NCBI GenBank assembly: GCA_017416805.1
Contig: JAFQBB010000052.1
Span: 1-63,170 of the forward strand
DNA from: Bacteroidaceae bacterium
GTDB lineage: Bacteria; Bacteroidota; Bacteroidia; Bacteroidales; Bacteroidaceae
Direction: 5' to 3'
DNA: 63,170 bases
Under the pieces are notes generated by a model. It saw nothing but the letters and a program-made list of their open reading frames with translations, was not told where the DNA came from and did not search any database. Every line of letters begins with the position of its first letter. The stretch's first letter is position 1. The translations under genes and the position numbers were made by a program. Positions 8,753 to 62,616 of the stretch are shown here, piece by piece.

Positions 8753-8793
8753 ATCCTCTTCACAGTTGTGAAAAGATATCTTCACTTCTGTGA
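8710..8793 (+). other. Possible 27-codon peptide within the repeat
   Basis: A GTG-initiated frame reads VTETYYYCIKVLDEYPLHS and runs into the first palindromes of array A before stopping. The first 14 residues align with the 14-residue frame at 47351-47395 (nine identical). Most differences are at third or conservative positions, which hints at past coding. It could equally be a decayed gene end. Confidence 0.25.
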
Positions 8794-8860
8794 AGAGATG
8801 TCTTCACAGTTGTCAAGAGATGTCTTCACAGTTGTCAAGAGATCTCTTCACAGCTGTGAA
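8759..8860. repeat. Array A: five palindromes at exactly 22-bp spacing
   Basis: Five 14-bp units of the form TTCACAGTTGTGAA start at 8759, 8781, 8803, 8825 and 8847. Units 3 and 4 have one base change each, and unit 2 has CTTCTG in the middle. All four centre-to-centre distances are 22 bp, with 8-bp spacers such as GAGATGTC. It lies between convergent genes. Confidence 0.9.
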
Positions 8861-8875
8861 GAGGTTTAAAGGTCT

Positions 8876-8917
8876 ATACTTTTATCGTTATAAGGTATGT
8901 ATTTTATGTTATAAAGG
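8876..8917. repeat. Right conserved module of the paired repeat, copy 1
   Basis: The 42-bp segment matches 47534-47575 at 41 of 42 positions. The two copies are 38.7 kb apart. The sequence between left and right modules is unrelated in the two loci (array A here, a different hairpin at 47 kb). Confidence 0.85.
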
Positions 8918-8920
8918 ACA

Positions 8921-8991
8921 TGTCTTATACTGCTATAGGTAGACACATTTACTAACAATTAAAATGTGTCTACCTATAGCAGTATAAGACA
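8921..8991. terminator. Hairpin with a 30-bp perfect stem between convergent genes
   Basis: Arms 8921-8950 and 8962-8991 are perfectly complementary with an 11-nt loop. It directly follows the right repeat module. Its position between a rightward and a leftward gene suits a bidirectional terminator, but the stem is unusually long for that. Confidence 0.7.
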
Positions 8992-9030
8992 AAAGGTATC
9001 ACCAAACAGCAAAATATGATATGCTATATT

Positions 9031-9072
9031 CTGCCGAATGCATCAATTTTGATTGGATTCGGCAGGTTTTAT
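9031..9072 (+). terminator. Short hairpin with T-rich tail
   Basis: CTGCCGAAT (9031-9039) pairs with ATTCGGCAG (9057-9065), followed by GTTTTATAT. It may be a second terminator in the gap 8627-9134. Beyond it, up to 9134, I see nothing else. Confidence 0.4.
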
Positions 9073-9134
9073 ATAGGTCTGTGGCTATATATCAAGACAG
9101 GGAGAGAATCAGCCAATACTCTCCCACCCAGACT

Positions 9135-10472: not shown

Positions 10473-10477
10473 AATAT

Positions 10478-10596
10478 TTAATGTGCTAATTTGTCAATGT
10501 GATAATGTGCTAATGTGGCAATGTGCTAATGCGACAATGTGCTAATGCGACAAAGTAGCGCGAGGTTATTAGCACATTGGAACATTAGCACATTAA
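10478..10596. repeat. TGCTAATG repeat cluster with terminal inverted repeats
   Basis: Near-identical units of about 18 bp containing AATGTGCTAATG repeat three to four times. The ends (10478-10490 and 10584-10596) are perfect 13-bp inverted repeats, so the whole gap can fold. The right end covers the stop codon of the SRPBCC gene. The same word family fills the next gap upstream (11021-11149). Confidence 0.75.
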
Positions 10597-11003
10597 TAAG
10601 GTATCTGCGCTATCATCTCGGCCATCTTTTCCAACCCTTCTTGTAAGGGCTTGGATACCATGCCTTTGATAAAGGGATTGAGTTCGGCCTTTACTGTAAG
10701 TTTCATCTTGCACTGGGTGTCATCAATTGCCACCAACTGAATCCAAAGATTAAAGGGTAGAGGCGAACTCGCTGTTTCAAATTTCACCAACTTGCATGGT
10801 TCACGCTCAATGATGCGCAAGCATACACTACCCATGGGAGATACGGTAAAATTGATAGAGTCGGTATCGAACTCGAAATTCTGAATCTTATCCTGAGGAA
10901 TACGGTCTTTGACCCCCTCCAGATTATTGAGGTCCGAGATTTTGGAATAAACCGCTTCTTGACTGAAGGGGATTACTTTGATGCTACTTTCAAATGTTGT
11001 CAT
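10593..11003 (-). CDS. SRPBCC/START-like small ligand-binding protein
   Basis: The 136-residue product begins MTTFESSIKVIPFSQEAVY. The reading frame is open 21 codons further upstream, but that part is translated repeat DNA (HYPISTLPHWH), so I reject the longer start. The pattern of strands and the C-terminal amphipathic helix (MVSKPLQEGLEKMAEMIAQI) fit the SRPBCC/polyketide-cyclase fold, which binds hydrophobic ligands in a deep pocket. No ligand can be named. It sits between pyrE and argH in one transcription unit. Confidence 0.85.
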   Translation of the reverse strand: MTTFESSIKVIPFSQEAVYSKISDLNNLEGVKDRIPQDKIQNFEFDTDSINFTVSPMGSVCLRIIEREPCKLVKFETASSPLPFNLWIQLVAIDDTQCKMKLTVKAELNPFIKGMVSKPLQEGLEKMAEMIAQIPY

Positions 11004-11020
11004 AAAATAATATGATAATC

Positions 11021-11149: not shown

Positions 11150-11175
11150 AATTAACACATTGGCACATTAAAATT

Positions 11176-11808: not shown

Positions 11809-11838
11809 ATAATGGTTTCTTCTTAGGATATATGGGTG

Positions 11839-14678: not shown

Positions 14679-14699
14679 ACTTTTAGTTAACAAGTTAAC

Positions 14700-19217: not shown

Positions 19218-19282
19218 GACACACGGCCGTCTATACCCCCCGACACACGGCCGTGTGTCAGGCAAAGAGACGGCCGTGTGTC
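19218..19282. repeat. Array B: GACACACGGCCGTGTGTC palindromes in a gene-free gap
   Basis: A full 18-bp palindrome (19242-19259) is flanked by two partial copies (19218-19230 and 19269-19282). Centres are 24 and 23 bp apart. The gap 18743-19609 is otherwise without a convincing gene. A 90-codon and a 100-codon minus-strand frame exist but show no domain or export signal. Confidence 0.75.
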
Positions 19283-37045: not shown

Positions 37046-37134
37046 TGAAAGGAATCAACCAAGACTATAAATAGAACAGAAAACAGTCAACGGAAATCGT
37101 TAACATACAAAGTGTGAAAACAGACCTAAAAAAA

Positions 37135-37213
37135 TGAACATATGTTCAAGTGCCTCTGAACATATGTTCAAGTGCCAACGAACATATGTTCGTGGCCATT
37201 TGAACATATGTTC
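37135..37213. repeat. Array C: four TGAACATATGTTCA palindromes at exactly 22-bp spacing
   Basis: Centres are at 37141.5, 37163.5, 37185.5 and 37207.5. Spacers are 8 bp (AGTGCCTC, AGTGCCAA, TGGCCATT). It lies between the convergent ROK and CE7 genes. Confidence 0.93.
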
Positions 37214-37251
37214 TTATTTTTACCTGATTCCAACTAAATTGCAGAAGATCC

Positions 37252-37271
37252 ACTGAAATCAGGAAAAGACA
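37252..37271. repeat. Conserved 20-bp core between arrays C and D
   Basis: ACTGAAATCAGGAAAAGACA is identical to the complement of 62341-62360 and matches 47699-47718 at 19 of 20 positions. Weaker similarity extends about 30 bp to the left. Each copy has a palindrome array on at least one side. Confidence 0.85.
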
Positions 37272-37286
37272 AAGTGTCAGCTCAGT

Positions 37287-37366
37287 ATCGTTTAAGAGAT
37301 ACTCCAATACTTCTTAAGTAGTACTCCAATACTTCCTGTATAGTACTGCAGTACTTCCTAAGAAGT
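37287..37366. repeat. Array D: four degenerate ACTTCTTAAGTAGT palindromes at 22-bp spacing
   Basis: Fourteen-base units centre on 37293.5, 37315.5, 37337.5 and 37359.5. The third is the most degenerate. Two of the three spacers are ACTCCAAT. It ends 41 bp before the end of the CE7 gene. Confidence 0.8.
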
Positions 37367-37406
37367 ATTGAAGGAGTGCAGTAACACCAAAGCGTCTGCC
37401 GAAACA

Positions 37407-38717
37407 TCATTTCTTCAGGTTCTTCAATATCCACTTCAAGTGGCCATATTCAGTTTCATCCGTGGTCCAATGTTCATTGATTGGAGTAATGAGCGGTTCT
37501 TTAGGGCAATTCATTACATTATAGACCATCCAACTGGTAGTGGGGGGACATACATTGTCGTTATACCCCCAAGTAATACGCACGGGACAGGTTATTTGAC
37601 GAGCAAAGTTCACCACATCAAAATATTCCAATGTGGCCAATTGTTGCTTGGTCAGATTTATATTTTTCCCATTATTGAAGTGAGGATAACCACCCGTACC
37701 ACCGGCGGCATAGCCTGCCATATCACTCAAAGCAGGATGATTGGCCACACAAGCGGTCACACGTTTATCCAATCCTGCCGTAATGAGAGCCAACGCTCCA
37801 CCTTGGCTTCCGCCTTGTACTATTACATTCTTTCCATCCCAATCAGACAATGAGGTCAGATAATCAATGGCACGCACACAAGCCAGATACACGCGTTTCA
37901 TATAATAGTTTTCTCTTGTTTCCAAGCTATTGGAAAGATAACCGTTTTCACGGCTACTAAAGGCATTGCTTATCTCTTTAAAAGTTGCCGCATCAATCTC
38001 GGGGTTCAAACCATGAATTTCCATTTCCAAACGGATACATCCCTCTTCGGCATAATATTTGCGGCGCATAGGTTCTTTAATCGTTTTGATTCCGGCACCA
38101 GGAGGGTTCAGCACTACAGGATATGAACCTTTAGCCTTGGGGCGGGTCAAATAGCCATATACGCATTGCCCACGGTTGGTCACATCCAATTTTATCAAAT
38201 AGCAATCAATCTTTTCATTCGAATATTCCGCCACATACTTGGTCGTATATCTCAAAGGAACTTTCTTCAGTGCTTCCAACTCGGATGCCCAGAAATCATT
38301 AAAGTCCTTGGGCAATTTGGTCACAGGTTGCAACTTCTCAGGCGAGAAACCGACCTTTACGTGATGGTTATATTTCTTTCCATTGAACTCTACGGTAAAG
38401 TTACAATCCCGGAAGCCCGGTTTTTTCATGGTACCCATGTCAACCTTAGCGCGACCGTTCTTCAATGTGACGGTACCGTTTTTATCCGGAGCCAGGTTGT
38501 CTTGTCCTAAAGTATAGGTGAGCACTACCCCATCCTGAGGTATGCCATAGCGATAGAGTTGCACCTCGACGGTAGCTTTCTCGCCCGTCTTGTAAAGCCA
38601 ATCGGCATGGTCAGGCACAGTCACCCAAAGGAGGTCGCTACGATAAGGATAGTTTTCAGCCAAAGCTGGTAACATGCACATCAATATCAGCGCAAACGCA
38701 AAAAGTCTGTTTTTCAT
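37407..38717 (-). CDS. Acetylxylan esterase-like (CE7) secreted esterase
   Basis: The 436-residue product has a signal peptide (MKNRLFAFALILMCMLPALA), an N-terminal beta-sandwich (about 25-125) and an alpha/beta-hydrolase domain of the cephalosporin-C deacetylase/acetylxylan esterase family. Nucleophile Ser304 is in GGSQGG, Asp387 in GYNDNVCPPTTS, and His426 in DETEYGH. It removes acetyl groups from xylo- or other oligosaccharides, probably in the periplasm. It stands alone and faces the ROK gene. Confidence 0.93.
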   Translation of the reverse strand: MKNRLFAFALILMCMLPALAENYPYRSDLLWVTVPDHADWLYKTGEKATVEVQLYRYGIPQDGVVLTYTLGQDNLAPDKNGTVTLKNGRAKVDMGTMKKPGFRDCNFTVEFNGKKYNHHVKVGFSPEKLQPVTKLPKDFNDFWASELEALKKVPLRYTTKYVAEYSNEKIDCYLIKLDVTNRGQCVYGYLTRPKAKGSYPVVLNPPGAGIKTIKEPMRRKYYAEEGCIRLEMEIHGLNPEIDAATFKEISNAFSSRENGYLSNSLETRENYYMKRVYLACVRAIDYLTSLSDWDGKNVIVQGGSQGGALALITAGLDKRVTACVANHPALSDMAGYAAGGTGGYPHFNNGKNINLTKQQLATLEYFDVVNFARQITCPVRITWGYNDNVCPPTTSWMVYNVMNCPKEPLITPINEHWTTDETEYGHLKWILKNLKK

Positions 38718-38758
38718 TTTTATTCAATATTTGTGTTAATATCCGGTCAATTTCCCTG

Positions 38759-38814
38759 CAAATGTACATCATTTTCGCGTATGTTGCTTATCTTTGCTCC
38801 ACCAAATTGGTGGA
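38759..38814. promoter_or_regulatory. Divergent promoters with a palindrome at the start site
   Basis: A minus-strand -7 box TACATTTG (38759-38766) serves the CE7 gene and a plus-strand TATCTTTG (38789-38796) serves the metallophosphoesterase. TCCACCAA A TTGGTGGA (38798-38814), two perfect 8-bp arms around one base, covers the expected plus-strand transcription start. Confidence 0.55.
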
Positions 38815-38828
38815 TAAATGAATCAAAT

Positions 38829-39647
38829 ATGAGAAAATACTATTTTTTATCCCTCCTTACGACAATTTTTATACTATCGTCATGCGCTTCACTCTCCCGT
38901 TATCCTGGTATAGGGCGCATCCGACGCTATACAATCAACAGTTCACAAGTGCCGGCCGCATTCGACGGTTTTCGCATCGCCTTTGCCAGTGATTTTCATT
39001 TGGAAAGCAAATATAAAGAGCGTCATCTCATGAACACAATACGCGCCCTACAAGACGAGCAACCCGATTTGCTCCTGTTAGGCGGAGATTATCAGGAAGG
39101 ATGCCAATATGTAGAGCCACTCTTCACCGCTCTGGGACAGGTAGCCCTTCCCTTCGGCACCTATGCCGTATTGGGCAACAATGATTATGAGCGATGCACA
39201 GACGAGATACGTAATGCCATGAAGAAGAATGGCATCCACCTGCTGGAGCACGAATTGGACACCCTCACGCGCAACGGACAACGTCTCATACTGGCCGGTG
39301 TAGCCAACGGCTTCGACCTGAAGCGTTACGCCACCTCACCAACCGCTCCATTGAAGGACGAGGACTACGTCGTAATGATTACCCACACGCCCGACTACAC
39401 CGAGGATGCAGACATCGTCCACACCGACCTCGCTCTTGCCGGACATACACACGGTGGACAGGTGACCCTCTTCGGCCTGATAGTGCCCGAAACTGCTTCA
39501 AAATATGGCCGCCGTTTCCTCACGGGGCTCAACTACAACACCCAAGGAATCCCCGTCATCACCAGCAACGGACTTGGCACTTCGCGAAAGAACATCCGCA
39601 CCGGTGCCCGTAGTGATTTGGTAATAGTGACCCTAAGAAAAGAATGA
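38829..39647 (+). CDS. Metallophosphoesterase, lipoprotein
   Basis: The 272-residue product begins MRKYYFLSLLTTIFILSSCA, a lipoprotein signal with lipobox LSSC. The calcineurin-like motifs are complete: ASDFHLE (D-x-H), LGGDYQEG (GD), LGNNDYE (GNND/H variant), VMITHTPDY and LAGHTHGGQ. YkuE-like enzymes of this type hydrolyse UDP-sugar lipids or other phosphoesters outside the cytoplasm; the substrate here is unknown. The frame is open 32 codons upstream but that part covers the promoter. Confidence 0.9.
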   Translation: MRKYYFLSLLTTIFILSSCASLSRYPGIGRIRRYTINSSQVPAAFDGFRIAFASDFHLESKYKERHLMNTIRALQDEQPDLLLLGGDYQEGCQYVEPLFTALGQVALPFGTYAVLGNNDYERCTDEIRNAMKKNGIHLLEHELDTLTRNGQRLILAGVANGFDLKRYATSPTAPLKDEDYVVMITHTPDYTEDADIVHTDLALAGHTHGGQVTLFGLIVPETASKYGRRFLTGLNYNTQGIPVITSNGLGTSRKNIRTGARSDLVIVTLRKE

Positions 39648-39686
39648 CTCCAACCCTGTCCATGAGGAAAAAAAAGAAGAAATCAT

Positions 39687-39717
39687 TTTGCTCTCCCCCT
39701 ACCTTACACTATCTTTG
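39687..39717 (+). promoter_or_regulatory. Promoter of miaB
   Basis: TTTG (39687-39690), 19 bp, TATCTTTG (39710-39717), an exact match to the Bacteroides consensus, 35 bp before the start codon. Confidence 0.8.
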
Positions 39718-39752
39718 CAGCATATTTTCACCTATAATAAACATATATAGAC

Positions 39753-41135
39753 ATGCAAACCTATCAAGAAGCGGACTCAAAATCCGCAACTGAACTAAAA
39801 AAGCTCTTCATCGAAACCTATGGATGCCAAATGAACGTGGCAGACAGTGAGGTTGTAGCCTCCATCATGCAGATGGCAGGCTATGAGGTATGCAACTCGT
39901 TAGAAGAGGCCGAAGCTGTATTTTTAAACACATGCTCAATCCGCGATAATGCAGAACAAAAAATTCTGAACCGTTTGGAATATTTTTTTTCCCTGCGGAA
40001 GAAAAAAAAGAACTTGATTGTCGGTATTCTCGGATGCATGGCCGAACGTGTAAAAGAAGACCTCATCAACAATCATCATGTGGATCTTGTGGCGGGTCCT
40101 GATGCTTATCTCTCTTTGCCCGATTTGATTGCTCAGGTTGAGGCCGGACAAAAGGCCATGAATGTAGAACTTTCTACGACTGAAACTTATCGCAACGTCA
40201 TCCCTGCCCGCATCGGAGGGAACCGTGTATCAGGCTATGTCAGCATCATGCGCGGATGTAACAACTTCTGTCATTATTGTATTGTTCCTTATACCCGCGG
40301 ACGTGAAAGGAGTCGCGATGTGAAGAGCATCTTAGACGAAGTGGCCGACCTTGTAGCTAAGGGATACAAGGAGATTACCCTATTAGGACAAAATGTAAAC
40401 TCCTATCGCTTTGAGGCAGAGGATGGTATAGTCATCACCTTCCCCCAATTGCTCCGCACCGTAGCCCAAGCGGCTAAAGGCATACGCATACGCTTTACCA
40501 CTTCACATCCTAAGGACATGAGTGACGAAACACTACACGTCATTGCCGAAGAGCCCAACGTATGCCGACACATCCACCTGCCCGTGCAGAGTGGCAGTAG
40601 CCGCATTTTGAAACTGATGAACCGTAAATACACCCGTGAATGGTATCTTGACCGTGTCGAAGCTATCCGACGCATCATCCCTGATTGCGGATTAAGTACT
40701 GACATCTTCAGTGGTTTCCACTCCGAAACGGAAGAAGATCATCAAATGTCCCTTTCGCTCATGCGTGAGTGTCAATACGATTCTGCTTTCATGTTCAAGT
40801 ATAGCGAACGCCCAGGCACATACGCCTCGAAACACTTACCTGATGACATCTCTGAGGAGATAAAAATCCGCCGTCTGAACGAGATTATTGAATTACAGAA
40901 CCAACTTTCAGCAGAAGCCAACCAGCGTTGCATCGGCAAGACCTATGAAGTTTTGGTCGAAGGTTTCTCCAAACGTTCACGCGAACAACTGGTAGGACGT
41001 ACTGAGCAAAACCGCGTAGTAGTATTCGACCGTGGATCACACCACATAGGTGACTTTGTGAACGTACGCATTACCGAATCTTCTTCGGCTACTCTGAAAG
41101 GTAAGGAAGTTTTTGAGGGAGGTTCTATAAATTAG
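39753..41135 (+). CDS. miaB: tRNA-2-methylthio-N6-dimethylallyladenosine synthase
   Basis: The 460-residue radical-SAM methylthiotransferase modifies A37 of tRNAs that read UNN codons. The N-terminal UPF0004 domain has cluster Cys 25, 61 and 95, and the radical-SAM CxxxCxxC is at 169, 173 and 176 (GCNNFCHYC). A TRAM RNA-binding domain lies at about 385-450. The length and all cluster ligands are normal. Confidence 0.96.
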   Translation: MQTYQEADSKSATELKKLFIETYGCQMNVADSEVVASIMQMAGYEVCNSLEEAEAVFLNTCSIRDNAEQKILNRLEYFFSLRKKKKNLIVGILGCMAERVKEDLINNHHVDLVAGPDAYLSLPDLIAQVEAGQKAMNVELSTTETYRNVIPARIGGNRVSGYVSIMRGCNNFCHYCIVPYTRGRERSRDVKSILDEVADLVAKGYKEITLLGQNVNSYRFEAEDGIVITFPQLLRTVAQAAKGIRIRFTTSHPKDMSDETLHVIAEEPNVCRHIHLPVQSGSSRILKLMNRKYTREWYLDRVEAIRRIIPDCGLSTDIFSGFHSETEEDHQMSLSLMRECQYDSAFMFKYSERPGTYASKHLPDDISEEIKIRRLNEIIELQNQLSAEANQRCIGKTYEVLVEGFSKRSREQLVGRTEQNRVVVFDRGSHHIGDFVNVRITESSSATLKGKEVFEGGSIN

Positions 41136-41176
41136 CCCCCTTGAACAGGAGCAAACTGACAATTCAACTCCTTTCG

Positions 41177-41207
41177 TTGAATATTTCGGTGTTTTTCTGT
41201 AACTTTG
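41177..41207 (+). promoter_or_regulatory. Promoter of typA
   Basis: TTG (41177-41179), 20 bp, TAACTTTG (41200-41207), 34 bp before the start codon. Confidence 0.7.
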
Positions 41208-41240
41208 CCCCGTTTTTGGTAAAAAGACAAAAGAACGAAT

Positions 41241-43040
41241 ATGCAAGATATTAGAAACATTGCAATTATTGCGCATGTTGACCACGGAAAAACCACGTTG
41301 GTTGACAAAATGATGCTCGCCGGCCATTTATTTCGTGGCGACCAGACAAACGGCGAATTGGTATTGGATAACAACGACCTCGAACGCGAACGAGGAATAA
41401 CCATTCTATCAAAGAATGTCTCTATCATATATAAGGATACAAAAATCAACATCATTGATACCCCGGGACACAGCGACTTCGGTGGCGAAGTAGAGCGTGT
41501 ACTGAACATGGCCGATGGATGCATTCTATTGGTAGATGCATTCGAAGGGCCAATGCCCCAGACCCGCTTCGTATTGCAAAAGGCATTGCAAATTGGTTTG
41601 AAGCCCATCGTGGTAGTAAACAAGGTGGACAAGCCAAATTGCCGCCCCGAAGAGGTGTATGAGATGGTATTCGATTTGATGTTCAGCCTCAATGCTACGG
41701 AAGACCAATTGGATTTTCCTGTTGTATATGGTTCAGCAAAAAACTATTGGATGGGCGAAGACTGGAAAACTCCGACGGAAGACATCAATTATCTGCTCGA
41801 CCAGATTATCGAACACATTCCTGCCCCCAAAAGATTGGAAGGTACACCCCAGATGCTCATCACATCCCTTGATTACTCTTCATATACAGGACGAATCGCT
41901 GTGGGACGTGTACACCGTGGCACTCTGACTGAAGGCATGAACGTCACGCTCTCACACCGTGACGGTAGCCAAACACGTGCAAAGATAAAAGAACTGCATA
42001 CATTCGAAGGCTTGGGACGCAAGCGGGTAGAGAGTGTCAGTTCAGGTGATATCTGCGCCATCGTGGGATTGGAAGCATTTGAAATCGGAGACACCATCTG
42101 CGATTTCGAAAATCCTGAACCATTGCCTACCATTGCCATCGACGAGCCTACCATGAGTATGGTCTTCACCATCAATGATTCTCCCTTTTTCGGCAAAGAA
42201 GGCAAGTTTGTCACCAGCCGCCATATCCATGACCGTCTGATGAAAGAACTGGACAAGAATCTGGCATTGCGCGTACAAAAAGATGAAACGACAGACAAGT
42301 GGACGGTGTTCGGACGTGGCGTATTGCACCTTTCAGTCCTCATTGAAACTATGCGCCGCGAAGGATACGAATTGCAAGTAGGCCAACCGCAGGTTATATA
42401 CAAGACCATCAACGACCAACGTTGCGAACCTATCGAAGAGCTGACCATCAGCGTACCCGAAGAATATGCCAGCAAAATGATTGATATGGTGACCCGCCGT
42501 AAAGGCGAACTGACCTCTATGGAAACAGCCGGTGACCGTGTAAACATTGAGTTCAACATTCCCTCAAGGGGTATCATCGGCCTGCGCACCAACGTTCTGA
42601 CCGCATCAGCCGGAGAGGCTATCATGGCACACCGTTTCAAGGAATACCAACCCTACAAAGGTGACATTGAGCGCCGCACCAACGGTTCGATGATTGCCAT
42701 GGAGACAGGCACAGCTTTTGCCTATGCCATAGACAAGCTACAAGATCGCGGCAAGTTCTTCATTTTCCCTCAAGAAGAGGTCTATGCCGGACAAGTGGTA
42801 GGCGAACATGCACACGACAACGACCTGGTCATCAATGTCACCAAGAGTAAGAAATTGACAAACATGCGCGCCAGCGGTTCTGACGATAAAGCACGCATCG
42901 TTCCTCCCATTGTCTTCTCACTCGAAGAGGCATTGGAATACATCAAGGAAGATGAATACGTAGAGATTACTCCCAAAAGCATGCGTATGCGCAAGATTAT
43001 TCTCGACGAATTAGAGCGCAAACGCGCGAACAAGCAATAG
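41241..43040 (+). CDS. typA: Ribosome-associated GTPase TypA/BipA
   Basis: The 599-residue translational GTPase has G1 AHVDHGKT (11-18), G2 around ERERGIT, G3 DTPGHSDFGGEV, G4 NKVDKP and the EF-G-like domains III and V. The BipA-specific C-terminal domain ends near KRANKQ. It assists 50S assembly and stress or cold growth. It is a single gene closed by a bidirectional hairpin. Confidence 0.97.
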   Translation: MQDIRNIAIIAHVDHGKTTLVDKMMLAGHLFRGDQTNGELVLDNNDLERERGITILSKNVSIIYKDTKINIIDTPGHSDFGGEVERVLNMADGCILLVDAFEGPMPQTRFVLQKALQIGLKPIVVVNKVDKPNCRPEEVYEMVFDLMFSLNATEDQLDFPVVYGSAKNYWMGEDWKTPTEDINYLLDQIIEHIPAPKRLEGTPQMLITSLDYSSYTGRIAVGRVHRGTLTEGMNVTLSHRDGSQTRAKIKELHTFEGLGRKRVESVSSGDICAIVGLEAFEIGDTICDFENPEPLPTIAIDEPTMSMVFTINDSPFFGKEGKFVTSRHIHDRLMKELDKNLALRVQKDETTDKWTVFGRGVLHLSVLIETMRREGYELQVGQPQVIYKTINDQRCEPIEELTISVPEEYASKMIDMVTRRKGELTSMETAGDRVNIEFNIPSRGIIGLRTNVLTASAGEAIMAHRFKEYQPYKGDIERRTNGSMIAMETGTAFAYAIDKLQDRGKFFIFPQEEVYAGQVVGEHAHDNDLVINVTKSKKLTNMRASGSDDKARIVPPIVFSLEEALEYIKEDEYVEITPKSMRMRKIILDELERKRANKQ

Positions 43041-43067
43041 AAGTAAAGGATATAAGACTAAACAAAA

Positions 43068-43114
43068 ATAAAGAGAGTGCGTGTTAATTTATCATTTACA
43101 TACACTCTCTTTAT
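43068..43114. terminator. Bidirectional terminator between typA and the DUF2795 gene
   Basis: ATAAAGAGAGTG (43068-43079) pairs perfectly with CACTCTCTTTAT (43103-43114). Confidence 0.85.
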
Positions 43115-43128
43115 CCATTTGTCCGATT

Positions 43129-43350
43129 TTAATACTCATCCTCGTTGAAGAAGAAGTCCTCCTTGCTGGGATAGTCGGGCCAGATATCCTCGATGGATTC
43201 ATAAATCTCACCTTCATCTTCTATCTCCTGCAAGTTCTCTATCACCTCAAGAGGCGATCCCGAGCGGACCGCATAGTCAATCAATTCGTCCTTGGAAGCG
43301 GGCCAAGGAGCATCCTCCAGTTTGGAGGCCAATTCCAATGTCCAATACAT
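43129..43350 (-). CDS. DUF2795 family small acidic protein
   Basis: The 73-residue acidic product starts MYWTLELASKLEDAPWPASK and contains ELIDYAVRSGSPLEVIENL, a compact helical motif seen in DUF2795 proteins, often with EDIWPDYPSKEDF at the end as here. The function is unknown. It lies 66 bp after the adenosyltransferase gene and may be the last gene of that operon. Confidence 0.85.
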   Translation of the reverse strand: MYWTLELASKLEDAPWPASKDELIDYAVRSGSPLEVIENLQEIEDEGEIYESIEDIWPDYPSKEDFFFNEDEY

Positions 43351-43416
43351 ATATTTCTTCTTGTTATTTTAATTTGGCCGCAAAAATAAAACAAATATTC
43401 TCAACCACAAGCATTA

Positions 43417-43959
43417 TTACAAATAAAAATCATCAAAGCCGGCAATACTATTGATTTTGCGCGACAAAACAAACAAATAGTCAGACATACGGTTCAAAAA
43501 TGTCAGAATATTGTCATCCATGACACAACCGGCCTCTCTCATGGCAAGAGTACGACGTTCTGCCCGGCGACATACGGTTCTGCATACGTGGCATAGCGCA
43601 CTTCCCCTACTCCCACCTGGAATAATAAACGAACGACATGGTTGAAGGGTCTTCTGTACGGAATCAATAAGTTGTTCCAACTTGCTGATGTCTGATTGTC
43701 CGATTTGCGTTAAAGAGCGCTTTAAAGAAGAGGAATCTTCCGTTGCGAGCAAAGTGCCGATAACGAAAAGTTTCTTCTGTATCCATTGGACATTACCCAC
43801 TTCTTCTCCATCAACCAAATAAGTACATAGCACCCCCAACTGCGCATTCAGTTCATCAAGGGTTCCATAGGCTTCGAGGCGCACGTGTGTTTTCGGCACA
43901 CGTGCACCTCCTGCCAGACTGGTCATTCCCTTATCTCCGGTTTTGGTGTAGATTTTCAT
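43417..43959 (-). CDS. Cob(I)alamin adenosyltransferase, PduO type
   Basis: The 180-residue product makes adenosylcobalamin from ATP and cob(I)alamin. The N-terminal YTKTGDKGMTSLAGGARVPK and VRLEAYGTLDELNAQLG match the PduO-type ATP-binding region, and RTVCRRAERRT (about 126-136) is the conserved Arg block. It starts one base after the stop of the GH28 gene. Methylmalonyl-CoA mutase of the propionate pathway would need its product. Confidence 0.95.
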   Translation of the reverse strand: MKIYTKTGDKGMTSLAGGARVPKTHVRLEAYGTLDELNAQLGVLCTYLVDGEEVGNVQWIQKKLFVIGTLLATEDSSSLKRSLTQIGQSDISKLEQLIDSVQKTLQPCRSFIIPGGSRGSALCHVCRTVCRRAERRTLAMREAGCVMDDNILTFLNRMSDYLFVLSRKINSIAGFDDFYL

Positions 43960-43960
43960 C

Positions 43961-45577
43961 TTACAACTCTATACTTTGTGCTTTAAATCCTATTTCGGCA
44001 TATTCTTTACCGTCAATCTTCAGATTCTTGGCATTGTTTACCTTCAAACGATCACTACCGTCAACGGTCTCGACAAGGACATTCTCAAATGTCACATCCT
44101 CAGCTTGGCTGATGACTACCCCACGTTTGGCTTGAGTGATAATCACATCTTTAACCGACACATTCTTTACAGGCATTTCCGGCAATCCGTTGAAGAACAT
44201 GGCACGACCGTCACATCCTTTGCATTTCACGTTGCTGATGAATATATTACGGAATGCAGGGGTCTTTTCCGTAACAGGAGGTATAGCGGCACGCATACGG
44301 GCTGCAACCTCTTCATCGGTTTCCTCGCCTGCACCCTTTCCTCCATAGAAAAGGTCAAAGAGCAATGGTTCATTGGGAATATCAATCATATTGATGTTTT
44401 CAATCCAGATATTCTCTACGATGCCGCCACGTCCACGTGTGCTCTTGAATCGGAGTCCTACATCAGTACCCATAAATGAACAATCGGCCACATAGATGTT
44501 TTTCACACCTCCAGACATTTCACTTCCAACGACAAATCCACCATGTCCGTGTAGCACCACATTATTCTTCACAATAACATTTTCGCAAGGAATGCCCCGA
44601 CGACGGCCATCCTCATCCTTGCCCGACTTGATACAGATAGCATCGTCTCCAGCATCAAATATACAATTGGTAATCAAAGCATTCTTACAAGACTCCAAAT
44701 CAAGGGCATCACCATTTTGTGAATACCAAGGATTGAACACTTTTACACGATTCAAAGTAATATCCTCACACATGAGCGGGTGCAGACACCACGCAGGAGA
44801 GTTCTTGAATGTGGCGTCTTCGAGCAAAACACGCTTGCATCCCACAAAGCTGAGCAATACAGGACGAAGCCAAGGACGCACTTCATTCCATTCGGCTTCA
44901 GAAGTAAGTCCTTCAGGAGTATTGAATTGTTTGGTAGCTTTAGCTCCCTTCAAAGATCCTTCGGTCGGATACCAGACATTCTTTTCAACAACTCCTCCAC
45001 TGGCCACCAGCTTTTTCCATTGCCCTTCGGTGAGTTTGCCTTTCTTTACAGGGCGCCAGCTATCTCCCGAACCATCAAACACTCCTTTTCCCGTGATGGC
45101 TATATTCTCTACATTCCAGGCAGAAAGCGGTGATTGGCAACGGCGGGTATTCAACCCTTCAAAGGATGTGTCAAGAATGGGATACAACATAAAATCATCG
45201 GAGAAGATGACCAATGCATTTTCTTCGGCATGAAGGTTTACATTACTTTGCAACACAATAGGTCCTGTGTACCAGATTCCGGCAGGAATAACAACCTTAC
45301 CTCCACCCTTCTCACTGACGCTCTTTATGGCATTATTAATGGCTTCGGTATTCAGGGTTATGCCATCACCCTTAGCCCCAAAATCCGTTATACATACTTG
45401 ATTGTCCGGAAACGAAGGGCGTTTGACTTCGTCCATCTCAAATGGAAGATTCTTGTAAACACAACTCTGATCCGCAACCTGATTACACCCTTGTTGTGAA
45501 GAAGTTGACGGACAACAAGCTGACAAGGAAGTAGCAATTGCCATAAGAATGGCTACATTTCTGAATGATTTTTTCAT
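43961..45577 (-). CDS. GH28 polygalacturonase, lipoprotein
   Basis: The 538-residue product has a lipoprotein signal with lipobox LSAC (Cys21). After GAKGDGITLNTEAINNAI the right-handed beta-helix follows. Active-site blocks are NGDALD (288-293), the Asp pair AGDDAICIKSG (309-319), GHGG (344-347) and RFKS (376-379), the NTD/DD/GHG/RxK pattern of GH28. It hydrolyses polygalacturonan or rhamnogalacturonan, on the cell surface or in the periplasm. It is co-directional and nearly contiguous with the adenosyltransferase gene. Confidence 0.94.
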   Translation of the reverse strand: MKKSFRNVAILMAIATSLSACCPSTSSQQGCNQVADQSCVYKNLPFEMDEVKRPSFPDNQVCITDFGAKGDGITLNTEAINNAIKSVSEKGGGKVVIPAGIWYTGPIVLQSNVNLHAEENALVIFSDDFMLYPILDTSFEGLNTRRCQSPLSAWNVENIAITGKGVFDGSGDSWRPVKKGKLTEGQWKKLVASGGVVEKNVWYPTEGSLKGAKATKQFNTPEGLTSEAEWNEVRPWLRPVLLSFVGCKRVLLEDATFKNSPAWCLHPLMCEDITLNRVKVFNPWYSQNGDALDLESCKNALITNCIFDAGDDAICIKSGKDEDGRRRGIPCENVIVKNNVVLHGHGGFVVGSEMSGGVKNIYVADCSFMGTDVGLRFKSTRGRGGIVENIWIENINMIDIPNEPLLFDLFYGGKGAGEETDEEVAARMRAAIPPVTEKTPAFRNIFISNVKCKGCDGRAMFFNGLPEMPVKNVSVKDVIITQAKRGVVISQAEDVTFENVLVETVDGSDRLKVNNAKNLKIDGKEYAEIGFKAQSIEL

Positions 45578-45614
45578 AGGTAAATAGTTTGTTAATAACA
45601 GTTTTTTATGTTCT

Positions 45615-46301
45615 CTAAAAGTTTACTATGTAGTGTTGCTTGTTCATGGTATGATTGAAAAATATCAACCCCACTTCATACAGGTCAAAAGTGATTCCCG
45701 TCCGTTTATCGGCAACCAGTTCTTCCCACCATGCCTGTTTGACAGCATCCGCATGAATTCCGTTTATAACAACGAGTGTTTTTTCTGTCAGGTAAGGAAA
45801 ACATTTTTCATAAACCTGCCGGTATTTGTCCGTGTGTGCAATATGCAACAGGTCAATACGTGGCATCACCTCCAATTCGCATTGCAATGCCTTCATCAAT
45901 TCTCCCCCTATCACTTTCCCGTTCTTGCAAAGGTTCATCTTCAAAGCATCATCTCCACTAATAGAGACATCATATAATGACACGCATTTGGAATCAGCCT
46001 TTCCGGCCGTCAAATAACAAAATTCTACCCCTGCACCAGTGCCAGCCTCCAATACATACTCGGGTTGGAAATGATTCACCAGCTTGAACAACAGTTTGTC
46101 AACCCGTTCAGCACAATACGGTTCTCCCTTCGGAGCTTTCTTGCGCAAGATTTTCAGTTCGCTATAAGCATAATAGGGCAATTTTTCATAGATGACCTCC
46201 GTTATCAATTTGAACGCAAAAGGTGAATGCACCCCGTAACCCTTACGGTATCGGAAACGCCGACACCAAATGTATGCTCGCTTCAAGAAACTCATACGCA
46301 T
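45615..46301 (-). CDS. SAM-dependent methyltransferase-like protein
   Basis: The 228-residue product begins MRMSFLKRAYIWCRRFRYRK, and a Met two codons later is also possible; the frame upstream covers a -7 box. YVLEAGTGAGVEFCYLTAG (about 79-97) is the class I methyltransferase SAM loop. Otherwise the protein resembles the short Bacteroides methyltransferase-like family with KGYGVHSPFAFKLITEVIYE at the N-terminus. Substrate unknown. It precedes the GH28 gene by 37 bp. Confidence 0.82.
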   Translation of the reverse strand: MRMSFLKRAYIWCRRFRYRKGYGVHSPFAFKLITEVIYEKLPYYAYSELKILRKKAPKGEPYCAERVDKLLFKLVNHFQPEYVLEAGTGAGVEFCYLTAGKADSKCVSLYDVSISGDDALKMNLCKNGKVIGGELMKALQCELEVMPRIDLLHIAHTDKYRQVYEKCFPYLTEKTLVVINGIHADAVKQAWWEELVADKRTGITFDLYEVGLIFFNHTMNKQHYIVNF

Positions 46302-46315
46302 GAAATTTAGAAGTG

Positions 46316-46323
46316 CAAATATA
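46316..46323 (-). promoter_or_regulatory. -7 element for the methyltransferase-GH28-adenosyltransferase unit
   Basis: TATATTTG followed by C on the minus strand, 14 bp before the start codon. Confidence 0.5.
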
Positions 46324-46454
46324 CATGAAAAGGTTGACAAATAATCCATATTCCTATATAATTTTTACATTTCAGACCTGACCCTACAGAAAAGTTTAAC
46401 AATACCATATAGAATATAAAACAAAAAATCCTTTTTTGGAACAAATCAAAGCTG

Positions 46455-46462
46455 TATCTTTG
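46455..46462 (+). promoter_or_regulatory. -7 element of the SDR gene
   Basis: TATCTTTG followed by C, 36 bp before the start codon; TTTG at 46435-46438 is a possible -33 box with a short 16-bp spacer. Confidence 0.5.
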
Positions 46463-46498
46463 CAGACAAAGAAAACCATTATTAATACAACAAGAATT

Positions 46499-47311
46499 AT
46501 GAACGAACTATTCAGCGTAAAAGACCAAGTGGTTGTTATCACTGGTGGAACAGGAGTTTTAGGCCGTTGCATTGCCAAGTATCTGGCAAAAGAAGGTGCC
46601 AAGGTCGTAGTCATGGGCCGTAAAGCCGATATTGGCAATGAAATTGTAAACGATATCAAAGCACAAGGAGGAGAAGCCATGTTCCTCGTTACTGACGTAA
46701 TGAATGTAGCCAAAGTAGAAGAAAACCTGCAAGACATCCTTAATGCATACGGTCGGGTAGATGCCCTACTGAATGCCGCTGGCGGAAATATGCCCGGTGC
46801 CACCATTGCCCCTACCGGCAACTTCTTTGATTTGGACCCCGAGCAATTCAAGCGCGTTTTGGAATTGAACCTTACAGGTACTGTCATTCCTACTCAGGTA
46901 TTCCTTAAAGCTATGGTAAAACAGGGCAAAGGCTCTATCGTGAATTTCTCCTCCATGGCAGCCTTCCGTCCCATGACCCGCGTATGCGGATATGCTGCCG
47001 CAAAAGCCGGAATCTCGAACTTTACCGCCTTCATGGCCAATGAAGTTGCCACCAAGTTTACTGAGAAAATCCGCGTGAATGCCATTGCACCAGGTTTCTT
47101 TCTGACCGAGCAGAACCTTCTGCTCCTGACTGATGGAAAGGGCAACCTCACCGAACGCGGACAAGACGTAATCCGCCAAACTCCTTTCAAACGATTCGGC
47201 GAGCCCGAAGAATTGTGCGGAACAATCCAATACCTCATCAGTGATGCCTCCAAATTCGTGACAGGTACTGTAGCTGTTGTTGACGGTGGTTTCAACGTCT
47301 TTGCAATGTAA
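46499..47311 (+). CDS. SDR oxidoreductase, probable fructuronate reductase (D-mannonate oxidoreductase)
   Basis: The 270-residue NAD(P)-dependent product begins MNELFSVKDQVVVITGGTGV. The Rossmann loop is TGGTGVLGRCIAKYL. ALLNAAGGNMPGATIAP is a block shared with YjmF/UxuB-type short-chain mannonate oxidoreductases, and the catalytic YAAAK is in GYAAAKAG. It would act in galacturonate or glucuronate breakdown. That fits the divergent polygalacturonase gene, but mannonate dehydratase (uxuA) is not adjacent. Confidence 0.85.
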   Translation: MNELFSVKDQVVVITGGTGVLGRCIAKYLAKEGAKVVVMGRKADIGNEIVNDIKAQGGEAMFLVTDVMNVAKVEENLQDILNAYGRVDALLNAAGGNMPGATIAPTGNFFDLDPEQFKRVLELNLTGTVIPTQVFLKAMVKQGKGSIVNFSSMAAFRPMTRVCGYAAAKAGISNFTAFMANEVATKFTEKIRVNAIAPGFFLTEQNLLLLTDGKGNLTERGQDVIRQTPFKRFGEPEELCGTIQYLISDASKFVTGTVAVVDGGFNVFAM

Positions 47312-47314
47312 ATA

Positions 47315-47395
47315 AAGATTAGCCCAATACTAAAAAATGGCACTTAAAGCATGACAGAAGCATACTGTTATTGCATTAAAGTACAGGACGAGTAG
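47315..47395. repeat. Left conserved module of the paired repeat, copy 2
   Basis: It aligns with 8671-8752. Within it an ATG frame (47351-47395) reads MTEAYCYCIKVQDE and stops. It begins four bases after the stop codon of the SDR gene. Confidence 0.7.
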
Positions 47396-47424
47396 GGGGG
47401 GGGCAAAATGCCTTCTTTTCATTC

Positions 47425-47503
47425 TTTAGACGCGGATAACGCGGATAAATTATAACCTATCGGGTATAATAATCAAGAGAAATCCGCGTCATCTGCGTCT
47501 AAA
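47425..47503. repeat. Hairpin cargo between the repeat modules at 47 kb
   Basis: Arms 47425-47446 and 47482-47503 pair at 20 of 22 positions (word GACGCGGAT). It occupies the place that array A holds in the copy at 8.7 kb. Confidence 0.75.
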
Positions 47504-47533
47504 AAGTCAGTTATGACACCCTCTTAAAAGCCG

Positions 47534-47575
47534 ATACTTTTATCGTTATAAGGTATATATTTTATGTTATAAAGG
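47534..47575. repeat. Right conserved module of the paired repeat, copy 2
   Basis: It is identical to 8876-8917 except for one base in 42. Confidence 0.85.
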
Positions 47576-47698
47576 TCATTAGACAGACAGACAGGAGTGT
47601 CAAGCCGAACAGCAGGGAATAGGAGAAAACGTAAACATCTCCAGTATGGCAAGAAGAAAGGTGTAAACCTTTTTAGCTAATGAAGCAAAAAAACGTCT

Positions 47699-47718
47699 AC
47701 TGAAATCAGAAAAAGACA
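47699..47718. repeat. Conserved core next to array G
   Basis: It matches the 37252-37271 core at 19 of 20 positions. On the left, AGCTAATGAAGCAAAAAAACG matches the complement of 62370-62393 with few changes. The frame reads FLANEAKKRLLKSEKDTLNL, which resembles a decayed coding end. Confidence 0.75.
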
Positions 47719-47771
47719 CTTTAAACCTTAAACTTTGAACCTTGAACGAAAATGTCAGGCACACTCAAAAA

Positions 47772-47830
47772 AAATGCGCCTTGCATTTTCCAAAATGCGG
47801 CTCGCATTTGAGAAAAAGCAAGGCGCATTT
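47772..47830. repeat. Array G: three AAATGC...GCATTT palindromes
   Basis: Unit centres are about 47780, 47801 and 47822, i.e. 21 bp apart. Unit 3 is the complement of unit 1 with one base missing. It ends 15 bp before the end of the leftward gene. The whole gap 47312-47845 is thus built of repeat modules. Confidence 0.8.
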
Positions 47831-47845
47831 TTATACTTTCTCGTT

Positions 47846-48211
47846 TCATGCCCGACGGGTCTTATAGGAAAGGATATGCCAACTGATGCCGATGGCAAGC
47901 AGGAAGAGGAGGATGCGTAGCCAAAGCGGATCGACTACAAAGAAGATGCAATAGAGCAAAGTGACCCATACCATGGTGACTGACACGACCTTGACACGGA
48001 GAGGAATGGCCTTGTCTTCACGGAAGCTATGGATATAGGGGCCTAACGTGGGATGGGACATGAGCCAACTATAAAGGCGGTCCGACCCATGAAAATAACA
48101 GGTGGCAGAAAGCAACAGGAAGGGAGTGGTGGGAAGCAAAGGAAGGGCTATACCCAACAGACCTAACACCAAGGATAGAGTACCTAAAACAATCAGAAAG
48201 TTCTTTTTCAT
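47846..48211 (-). CDS. YbaN-like (DUF454) inner-membrane protein
   Basis: The 121-residue product starts MKKNFLIVLGTLSLVLGLLG and contains LPLLPTTPFLLLSATCYFHG, the YbaN/DUF454 signature, followed by HPTLGPYIHSFREDKAIPL and two more membrane segments. The function is unknown. The frame is open 32 codons further upstream without family similarity. It lies 100 bp after the CotH gene. Confidence 0.9.
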   Translation of the reverse strand: MKKNFLIVLGTLSLVLGLLGIALPLLPTTPFLLLSATCYFHGSDRLYSWLMSHPTLGPYIHSFREDKAIPLRVKVVSVTMVWVTLLYCIFFVVDPLWLRILLFLLAIGISWHILSYKTRRA

Positions 48212-60274: not shown

Positions 60275-60306
60275 CGAAGAAGGGTGAAATTCCACCTTTG
60301 ATCTGC

Positions 60307-60399: not shown

Positions 60400-60540
60400 A
60401 TTCATAGATGGAGAATCCCTGTATCTCATCCCGAAGCAAAACACAATAAGCTCTAAATCCCCACCTATTTTACTTCCTCCATTTAAACCTTGTCGGACGT
60501 AAAATGTCAAATGCAGAAAAAACTTATTAAGGGAATAAAT

Positions 60541-62214
60541 ATGCCTAATCTCAAAACCTTAGCAATAGCATTATGCCTGACAGGTTTGAACATCGGACTG
60601 TCAGCACAGGATGTAAAGAGTGAAAATGGTCTCCCCAATCGGATGATGCCCCGTAACGGTAATGGCATGATGCCGATGGGTGGCATGATGCCACATGGTG
60701 GTGGAATGATGCCATTTGGTGGCGCTCTGAACCAGTTCGGAGTGGAATTTGCCAAAGAGATGCCACAAGATGAAGATGTGGTGGTGAAGTCGAAATCTGA
60801 TACTCTGTACAACTATTATGTGGAGAATGTCAAGTTCGGGAAACCGGCCAAGATTGTTTTCTCCGACAACAACGCCGAGGTTACAAATCTTCCAAAGGGT
60901 GTGAAGATAGAAGCTGATGGAGCATACCTGACCATTACTTCAGGGATGGATGCCCCTCTGGCCATCGAGCTTCAAGGAAAGACAGAGAATGGAGCCTTGA
61001 AGTTCAACATCAGTGCCCCACTCAAATTGCTGTTCAACAATGTCACTGTGAAAAGTCAGCGTGGCGATGCCATCTTGTCACTGGGGAAAAACCATGTCTA
61101 TGCCGTGTTGGCCGAAGGGAGTGTGAACGAACTCTCTGATTGCCGCAATCCCGAGATGCCTCCGATGATGGGATTCCCACCAATGGGACCGGATAGGAAA
61201 ATTCCCAATAGGGAAAGTATGCCTGATTTCAAACCGGGCGAAATGCCTATGCCATTCATGGATCGTGACCGTGAGGAGAATCCCGAAGACTACCATATAC
61301 AGTATGGCATACGTATGAAAAAGCCCATGATGAAGAAAAAGCTGAAGATTGACGGCACCTTTGTCTGTACAGGTCCATTGACCGTGAGCGGAAAGGGAAC
61401 CCTGCAGATACAGAGCAATAACAAAGTGGGACTGAAGAGCAAAGCCAGTCTCATGCTTCGTCCCGGCAACGAGATTACAGTGAAGGCATTGTCCGGCAAA
61501 GGGGTAAATGCCAAAAACGAGCTCTATATGTATGGTGGCATACTGAATGTGGACTGCTCATTCAGCGCTGACAAGGCACTGACCAGCGGACGCAACATGT
61601 ATATCCGTGGAGGTCATACCGTGGTCAAAGCAGGCGGTGGCGAGTCAAGCGAAGGAGTGGAATCCAAGTTCCTCATGCAGATTGATGGCGGTGTGGTAGA
61701 AGTTGCAGCCCAGGATGATGCCATCAATGCCCAAGGCGATTTGATTATAAACGGAGGAGAAGTGAAGGCATATTCGATGGTGAACGATGCCATTGATGCC
61801 AACTGCAACATCGTAATCAACGGAGGTGACATATTTGCTTGTGGCAACGGAATGCCGGAAGGCGGACTGGACTGTGCTGAAGAGGAAGGATACCGTCTGT
61901 TCATCAACGGAGGAACAGTCATTGCCATCGGCGGCAGACACTCCATGCCCGACAAGCAATCCCGCCAACCCTCCATACAATGGCGACTGGACAATCTGGA
62001 GGCTGGCAAGGAATATGGGATAGAGGGCATCAGTTCGTACAAGTCCGACCGCACCTATCAGATGGGTGGCGCCACCCTCCTGTTCTCATCACCGGAACTG
62101 CAAGCGGGCAAACCTTACACCCTCACCATTGATGGAACAGAAGCCGAGCGGATAGAATCTCTCTCCGCACCACTCGGCACAGCAAGCAATGCCAGACGGC
62201 CGATGTTTAGATAG
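60541..62214 (+). CDS. DUF4353 (Cthe_2159-like) carbohydrate-binding beta-helix protein
   Basis: The 557-residue product starts MPNLKTLAIALCLTGLNIGL, a signal peptide. A Met/Gly/Pro-rich segment follows at residues 35-61, with a second Met/Pro-rich stretch near 200-240. The beta-helix is built of GGT/GGE-type rungs: KLKIDGTFVCTGPLTVSGKG, NKVGLKSKASLMLRPG, DDAINAQGDLIINGGEVKAY, NDAIDANCNIVINGGDIFAC. This is the DUF4353 pattern; the founding protein binds cellulose and polygalacturonate. It lies downstream of the pectin esterase gene and probably helps capture pectin at the surface. The frame is open 17 codons upstream without a signal peptide. Confidence 0.87.
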   Translation: MPNLKTLAIALCLTGLNIGLSAQDVKSENGLPNRMMPRNGNGMMPMGGMMPHGGGMMPFGGALNQFGVEFAKEMPQDEDVVVKSKSDTLYNYYVENVKFGKPAKIVFSDNNAEVTNLPKGVKIEADGAYLTITSGMDAPLAIELQGKTENGALKFNISAPLKLLFNNVTVKSQRGDAILSLGKNHVYAVLAEGSVNELSDCRNPEMPPMMGFPPMGPDRKIPNRESMPDFKPGEMPMPFMDRDREENPEDYHIQYGIRMKKPMMKKKLKIDGTFVCTGPLTVSGKGTLQIQSNNKVGLKSKASLMLRPGNEITVKALSGKGVNAKNELYMYGGILNVDCSFSADKALTSGRNMYIRGGHTVVKAGGGESSEGVESKFLMQIDGGVVEVAAQDDAINAQGDLIINGGEVKAYSMVNDAIDANCNIVINGGDIFACGNGMPEGGLDCAEEEGYRLFINGGTVIAIGGRHSMPDKQSRQPSIQWRLDNLEAGKEYGIEGISSYKSDRTYQMGGATLLFSSPELQAGKPYTLTIDGTEAERIESLSAPLGTASNARRPMFR

Positions 62215-62261
62215 GGAGGGAATCCACACCTAAAATTGGGGAATATAGGTTCAATTACAAA

Positions 62262-62319
62262 GTATCCTAAGATACTTGCCCATTTATCTTAAGATAGACA
62301 GGCATTTATCTTAGGATAC
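62262..62319. repeat. Array E: three palindromes at 22-bp spacing
   Basis: Units GTATCCTAAGATAC, TTATCTTAAGATAG and TTATCTTAGGATAC centre on 62268.5, 62290.5 and 62312.5. The outer units can also pair with each other (AAGTATCCTAAGATA with TATCTTAGGATACTT), followed by a T run, so it may terminate the DUF4353 transcript. Confidence 0.85.
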
Positions 62320-62340
62320 TTTTTTCTTTATTTCAATAGC

Positions 62341-62360
62341 TGTCTTTTCCTGATTTCAGT
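62341..62360. repeat. Conserved core (reverse) between arrays E and F
   Basis: The reverse complement is ACTGAAATCAGGAAAAGACA, identical to 37252-37271. It overlaps the end of the short frame at 62356-62466. Confidence 0.85.
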
Positions 62361-62466
62361 TCAGTAAACGGTTTTCTGTTTCATTAGCTGAATTAATAAA
62401 CTCTTCTTCTTGAAATCCGCTGAAAAGCTTTACACGTTTGATAAAATCAACATTATATGTTCTCAT
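62356..62466 (-). CDS. Possible 36-residue small protein within the repeat module
   Basis: An ATG frame reads MRTYNVDFIKRVKLFSGFQ then EEEFINSANETENRLLN. The last part resembles the frames in the other core copies (FLANEAKKRLLKSEKD at 47.7 kb and FLPDSN at 37.2 kb), so either a small gene or a gene end is being copied and decays. It has no known family. Confidence 0.3.
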   Translation of the reverse strand: MRTYNVDFIKRVKLFSGFQEEEFINSANETENRLLN

Positions 62467-62515
62467 AAATATTTGATGATCAACAATGTTTCAAATCACT
62501 AAAACCTGCTGAAAT

Positions 62516-62616
62516 ATCTCTTAAGCGTTAAGTCAGTTACGCTTAAGCGTAAGTAAAATATCTCTTAAGCGTTAGCACATTAACGCTTAAGCGTTATCCA
62601 GCCACGCTTAAGGCTG
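62516..62616. repeat. Array F: five ACGCTTAAGCGT palindromes at 22/22/22/21-bp spacing
   Basis: Centres are at 62522.5, 62544.5, 62566.5, 62588.5 and 62609.5. Units 2 and 4 are perfect (TACGCTTAAGCGTA and AACGCTTAAGCGTT), and units 1, 3 and 5 are half-altered. Confidence 0.92.

Follow-up and report, generated by a model that had tools for sequence, protein, structure and literature searches.

Seven intergenic arrays of short palindromic units, A to G, lie in a 63,170-nucleotide stretch of contig JAFQBB010000052.1 (the window), from the Bacteroidaceae bacterium assembly GCA_017416805.1. Arrays of this kind, in which the units follow one another at a pitch of about 22 bp, are real, widespread in Bacteroidales and apparently undescribed, and are best seen as sequence-diverse BrickBuilt-like repeats, or repeats like the repetitive extragenic palindromic (REP) elements, that share a two-turn pitch. 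The reading that we favour, which falls just short of an even chance and draws on sequence comparison, is that short, dispersed non-coding repeats, which resemble REPs or miniature inverted-repeat transposable elements (MITEs) and fall into lineage-specific families, have the arrays as their cores, with symmetric sites read by a putative dimeric protein. In each core, a single symmetric site would be repeated in tandem 3 to 12 times, about every 22 bp. The constrained thing would be a specific symmetric double-stranded site for a dimeric DNA-binding protein, which might be a transposase, a regulator or a chromosome protein. At the two-turn pitch, neighbouring dimers would lie on the same face of the helix and could bind cooperatively. 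As element families diverged together with their readers, new unit sequences (words) would appear.

All seven arrays reported in a first-pass annotation of this DNA are present in the sequence (Table 1), and the fixed geometry of about 22 bp that it described was confirmed for A to G, including the departures from 22 bp in B, F and G. Palindromes alone, with 6-bp arms and one mismatch, gave five arrays in the window against 0–2 in 20 block shuffles; with 7-bp arms and two mismatches they gave 14 against 4–17, that is, no excess. After palindrome-only detection had proved too weak at lax settings, we adopted a detector that combines a three-unit dyad score with unit-to-unit identity. At threshold 34 it returned eight matches in the window (A to G and one match of 16-bp pitch at 14692) and none in each of eight Markov-resampled windows. 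Against randomised sequence, a comparison of the kind that the annotation had proposed, the detector matches are thus above chance, but the lax palindrome counts are not. The annotation had also held the array words to be unrelated in sequence, which is incorrect for E and F, both of which have the centre CTTAAG.

Table 1. Arrays and associated features of the window, with pitch or successive centre-to-centre steps.
Feature	Position	Strand	Description	Pitch or steps (bp)
Array A	8759..8860		five units of TTCACA-NN-TGTGAA type, spacer about GAGATCTC	22
Array B	19218..19282		three units around ACGGCCGT	24, 23
Dispersed element	37117..37273	+	array C and tail; second copy on contig C5 of the window's genome (locus L018)	
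Array C	37135..37213		four units of TGAACATATGTTCA type	22, 22, 22
Shared tail motif	37253..37271	+	CTGAAATCAGGAAAAGACA, adjoining C	
Array D	37287..37366		AGTACTNCAGTACT-centred units alternating with TTCTTAAG-like stretches	22
Array G	47772..47830		three units of AAATGCG..GCATTT type	21
Array E	62262..62319		three units of TATCTTAAGATA type	22, 22
Array F	62516..62616		five CTTAAG-centred units (AACGCTTAAGCGTT)	22, 22, 22, 21

The pitch is real and general, as the annotation had supposed. In a 2.03-Mb sample not chosen for arrays, except that the window was included, intergenic tandem repeats with periods of 14–40 peaked at 22, a period found in 17/25 of the strongly palindromic repeats and 21/67 of the others. 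Across 134 collected arrays (pitch 20–24 only, exact duplicates removed, loci fetched for their word included), the modal pitch was 22 in 108 and 23 in 8; the arrays formed 51 word clusters, the largest of 45. Named-record loci around argH (80 retained of 575, mostly Bacteroidaceae, 1.35 Mb) gave 23 matches at threshold 35 against none in one resampled set; both steps were 22 in 13 of these, and a few were short-period repeats. Within the window's genus, ten 20-kb stretches of G010, a near-complete relative genome (nine at even intervals and one surrounding a chosen gene), and ten from other genus members gave 16 matches against none, several of which, in L143–L145, are short-period repeats such as ATTGACA runs. 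Further matches came from 20 other genera of the family (four in 353 kb, every one of pitch 22), Parabacteroides distasonis (five in 200 kb, pitches 21–23), Bacteroides finegoldii (one in 100 kb) and Phocaeicola massiliensis (two in 98 kb). Persicobacter gave none in 100 kb, and same-class and same-phylum genomes taken as lying outside Bacteroidales gave none for pitches 20–25 at threshold 35; at threshold 34 there was one array in 404 kb outside Bacteroidales, Persicobacter included. Arrays occurred on average every 23 kb in the genus of the window and every 67 kb in the named set; by extrapolation, a genome would carry from some tens of loci to a little more than a hundred.

The words belong to dispersed families. 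Genome-wide searches of G000, the genome of the window (3.16 Mb in 64 contigs), covered words A, C and E. Word A was found at six loci including that of the window, word C in 58 forward matches at 25 or more loci, and word E in 30 forward matches at 17 loci; the reversed-pattern controls gave no match for any of the three. The first-pass description of a different word in each array is therefore not supported as a rule: each of the searched words (A, C, E) is multi-copy within one genome, as is the main G010 word. An alignment of the six loci shows array A to form the core of a short element (roughly 8718–8900), the flanks being similar over about 40 bp on each side. Among the matches listed, the C element and its second copy are 91% identical over 158 bp, and two loci of a further family in the same genome, with the word GAAATATATATTTC, are 92% identical over 214 bp; alignments give both families longer flanks than those of array A. 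The tail motif CTGAAATCAGGAAAAGACA occurs again at 47700 (+ strand, one mismatch, adjoining G) and 62341 (− strand, adjoining E), and at 15 places in the genome at up to three mismatches, compared with two for the reversed control. C's tail also comes after an E-type array at L014, and modules therefore recombine. G-type units come after CTGAAATCAGGAAAAGACA at about 5/15 of its places, and contigs C18, C46 and C57 each start about 120 bp ahead of it. With the motif considered as an insertion-sequence end, no transposase was recognised by eye in three-frame translations of six adjoining stretches, no family search being made. A plasmid search with 37100–37400 found no match.

The best-sampled family is that of G010, whose main word has 254 strand matches at no fewer than 61 loci and none for the reversed pattern. 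Its element, with 46 left-end matches, spans about 566 bp (approximately −145 to +421) with uniform geometry in 30 aligned copies. Elements comprising an array and its flanks thus lie at many separate loci, and we therefore conclude that they dispersed by copying. The orientation and replichore bias of the 46 copies was weak, and we make no claim from it. Two modules of the G010 element lie 320–323 bases apart in 30/30 copies (L192–L221), though the roughly 95 bp between them (+225 to +318) are barely conserved. This zone gave no consensus structure as a conserved hairpin in 23 of the 30 copies (seven were left out, their spacing being off by 1–2 bases) and, as a coding region, no reading frame common to eight copies.

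Words track clades, and from one species to another sites are gained and lost. Word A matched 9/201 family genomes, at least one of these matches looking like chance; G000 has 22 sites, G007 12 and G008 3, and genus g30 has a variant of the word. Word C was present in 3/15 genomes of the window's genus and word E in 8/15, with 2 to 50 matches each, while the dominant G010 word was found in 0/118 genomes drawn across the phylum. None of 13 relatives has an array at the place of C and D; in one of them an array with a different word lies elsewhere in the locus as fetched. The annotation had counted relatives lacking arrays at the same locus as evidence against the arrays; such absence is indeed what we see there, yet it indicates turnover rather than artefact. 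At other sites, L065 has gained about 200 bp, array included, that L069 and L078 lack, L047 has an array and L049 does not, and L119 and L122 share one array that is decaying and has lost a unit.

Fast turnover of sites and the decaying, shortened array of L119 and L122 also suit a functionless origin, in which slippage or hairpin-templated copying would settle the repeat length near 22 bp and template switching would supply the palindromes; the excess of intergenic 22-bp tandem repeats extends to those without strong dyads, as the period counts above indicate. We consider this origin unlikely. Local slippage does not account for elements that keep conserved flanks at dozens of loci, which require dispersal; conservation within the unit is position-specific; and the excess was not seen outside Bacteroidales.

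The annotation had proposed that self-complementarity, rather than a particular motif, is what is selected. We analysed arm pairing in 183 distinct G010 units at nine arm positions, six of them variable, and in 29 word-A units. Positions 4–6 of the G010 arm were 96–99% paired owing to near-invariance, and are uninformative on covariation. Pairing was at or below independence at positions 3 (0.66 vs 0.68), 7 (0.83 vs 0.84) and 8 (0.46 vs 0.48, with 48 G-G and 41 C-C). No arm position of word A paired above independence. Local single departures in 30 oriented G010 copies comprised one G-T, eight A-C and 43 other pairs. In both of the families tested, half-sites are thus largely fixed. The proposal holds in part at G010 positions 1 (0.74 vs 0.68), 2 (0.77 vs 0.60) and 9 (0.56 vs 0.42), which covary, but not at positions 3, 7 and 8 nor anywhere in word A.

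Pairing between units was considered as well, with unit centres and array ends set automatically, array A in an alternate dyad register and array G with a shifted extra unit. Mirror and non-mirror units of the 134 arrays had the same complementarity (11.68 vs 11.68), and their spacers differed little (3.41 vs 3.39). In the 88 arrays outside G010, mirror units complemented one another no better than others did (P = 0.37). For arrays of at least four units, a permutation test gave P = 0.0375 for all 105, P = 0.0025 for the 42 from G010 and P = 0.39 for the other 63, so that a small G010 effect carries the whole set. On balance, fixed symmetric sites are favoured over free self-complementarity, and a compensatory component remains in G010.

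That component bears on a second explanation, a serious rival which we regard as possible rather than probable: that the arrays act as nucleic-acid structures, either as transcribed long hairpins serving as two-way terminators or 3′-end protectors, as proposed for REPs and bacterial interspersed mosaic elements (BIMEs), or through cruciform extrusion. As RNA, each of the seven arrays has a far stronger fold than its dinucleotide shuffles (z-scores from −4.97 to −10.90, with 0/200 shuffles as good for each), and stem-plus-T-run matches occur on both strands of array C. Unit 1 of array E is, over 12 bp, the exact reverse complement of unit 3, though each is locally imperfect; units 1 and 3 of B are nearly reverse-complementary and the outer units of G almost complementary, and B and G fold likewise. 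In G010 there is the partial covariation already described, 12/15 local double departures retain a Watson-Crick pair, and, with pairing taken over the whole array, single departures include 60 G-T against 29 A-C (118 other) and 14/24 double departures retain the pair; the mirror effect of that family points the same way. However, the z-scores do not discriminate, because tandem palindromes fold by construction. Terminator-like matches numbered 12 against 10.2 expected in the stretch scanned (36900–47950 only), the arms of word A do not covary, and the mirror advantage does not extend beyond G010. A hairpin over the whole G010 core is predicted by RNAalifold, yet Watson-Crick pairing in 23 copies equals independence (0.870 vs 0.866), and we rejected it. 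At the gathering threshold, Rfam gave no match in the window and none overlapping the arrays of eight G010 loci.

Gene context also bears on the hairpin. Placed by open reading frames (ORFs) without annotation, A, C, D and G lie between convergent genes, in agreement with the four of seven first reported, while B is co-directional and E and F, near the contig end, are unplaced. In the window's genome, 11 arrays were convergent, five co-directional and none divergent, with four at edges; five of the loci sampled had been fetched on account of word A. Of the placed arrays, 11/16 were thus convergent, compared with 22% of intergenic bases. Such placement would suit a two-way terminator. In other species, however, arrays also lie between divergent genes: those of the named loci were five convergent, five co-directional and six divergent, with three inside ORFs and one at an edge, and the five of P. 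distasonis, placed with annotation, were one convergent, two co-directional and two divergent. Convergent placement is therefore borne out in the window's genome but not beyond it.

A repeated symmetric site, as a dimer would read it, fits somewhat better than free self-complementarity, and several observations weigh against that reading. They include the G010 results just given (covarying positions 1, 2 and 9, compensated double departures, the G-T excess over whole arrays and the mirror effect), together with better mirror than non-mirror pairing in arrays B, D and E. Position 1 and the double departures speak for partial compensation, which lessens the weight of the dimer-bound site and adds to that of the hairpin. 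The similarity of units may reflect recent copying, which would leave few independent changes behind the 183 units. No target-site duplication was found for the G010 element (the best excess over boundary choices was a 2-mer in 7/30 copies, with 2.3 expected), and its ends resemble a terminal repeat only weakly (TGWCAAAAWG-like). Nor did we find a reader protein for the arrays; the many words of a genome would require many readers, and weakly dyadic 22-bp tandem repeats also exist.

A search for a recurrent neighbour gene, made on 310 ORF products encoded close to G000 and G010 arrays, gave none, the largest cluster consisting of ORFs that overlap the repeat itself; by eye, the remaining clusters shown resemble common Bacteroidales genes. 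A tie to Rpn genes (PDDEXK_2, PF12784), with the arrays as mobilised or regulatory repeats, appears very unlikely. Arrays are about twice as dense near these genes, both in the genus (8 in 94.7 kb vs 29 in 682 kb) and in the family (7 in 235 kb vs 25 in 1703 kb), and at L299 an Rpn gene is flanked on both sides by 22-bp arrays of related words (1296–1362 and 2464–2531). The enrichment is nevertheless modest, most Rpn loci scanned had no array, and G007 has 12 word-A sites without a PF12784 match. Still more improbable is that these are classical REPs, or REP doublets forming hairpins (REPINs), moved by a REP-associated tyrosine (RAYT, Y1) transposase. The arrays are high-copy, intergenic and palindromic, as such elements are, but the Y1 family PF01797 has no match in G000 or in the near-complete G010, which holds at least 61 loci of one word; 5/15 genomes of the genus were positive. 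We consider a RAYT origin largely refuted, and reject it, for these two genomes.

Three further observations concern repeats of similar form. A different 22-bp periodic motif, of TTTAGGA type, occurs in three stretches of the genus (L038:10405, L041:3136 and L151:3356). At L185, 2955–3242 form a nested array, in which about eight copies of the inner word TAAGTATAATACTT, at pitch 22, lie between outer units of another word (AAACACAAGTGTTT type), all in a single register. Beside array A lies a long inverted repeat, read by eye, with 29-bp arms at 8922–8950 and 8962–8990 and an 11-base loop.

A bolder version of the dimer-bound site, which we think doubtful, is that the arrays form a repeat class defined by geometry. 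Unrelated symmetric words would each have their own reader from a diversified protein family, the pitch would be forced so that dimers polymerise on one face, and words and readers would co-diverge by lineage. If so, the arrays would amount to a protein–DNA code, possibly marking chromosome domains or driving the spread of elements, of which BrickBuilt would be one member. A repeat class that is recognisable by pitch and dyad, not by sequence, would escape similarity-based repeat finding. Bacteroidaceae and Parabacteroides, in which we found arrays, are common gut bacteria, and the arrays offer an experimental handle on how Bacteroidales chromosomes are organised or terminated. They also place the BrickBuilt repeat in a possible wider family.

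In the open-access literature, most entries of which were judged from their listing, we found no description of the general array class. Like clustered regularly interspaced short palindromic repeats (CRISPRs), the arrays are regular, partly palindromic repeats with short spacers; unlike them, they have a 14-bp unit, an 8-bp spacer, the same spacers at many loci and many dispersed loci per genome. With REP, BIME and REPIN elements they share short, palindromic, intergenic, high-copy repeats that are lineage-specific and have a convergent bias in some genomes. They differ from REPs and REPINs in their units of about 14 bp, fixed 22-bp pitch and runs of 3–12, and no Y1 transposase was matched in G000 or G010.

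Among the papers compared (PMC4596501, PMC5771137, PMC3733652), the nearest described element is BrickBuilt. Its authors describe it as a MITE and minisatellite of Porphyromonas gingivalis, with 23-nt imperfect direct tandem repeats between a leader and a tail, and report it from P. gingivalis and P. gulae (PMC4596501); strain ATCC 33277 has 19 copies, which are intergenic and vary in unit number. They also predict long stem-loops, mention dyad symmetry, note that 22-nt tandem repeats had been reported before in strain W83, and give a target-site duplication of varying length for 3/4 intact copies; the main text does not contain the string 'palindrom' (PMC4596501). The published 23-nt consensus, with R = A and Y = C, has a 12-bp palindrome, TCTCATATGAGA, spanning the repeat junction; 124/2000 shuffles of the unit equal its dyad score, and the palindrome link is suggestive only. 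BrickBuilt differs in its pitch of 23 and single word, whereas our arrays mostly have pitch 22 and many words, and perhaps in its IS5-like terminal repeats (IS, insertion sequence), which we did not see in the G010 element apart from the weak similarity at its ends. The two are alike in being dispersed intergenic tandem repeats of Bacteroidales, near 22–23 nt and without long spacers, set between conserved flanks of leader and tail type, which in our arrays are those of the G010 element and, in shorter form, those of A, C and the third family of the window's genome.

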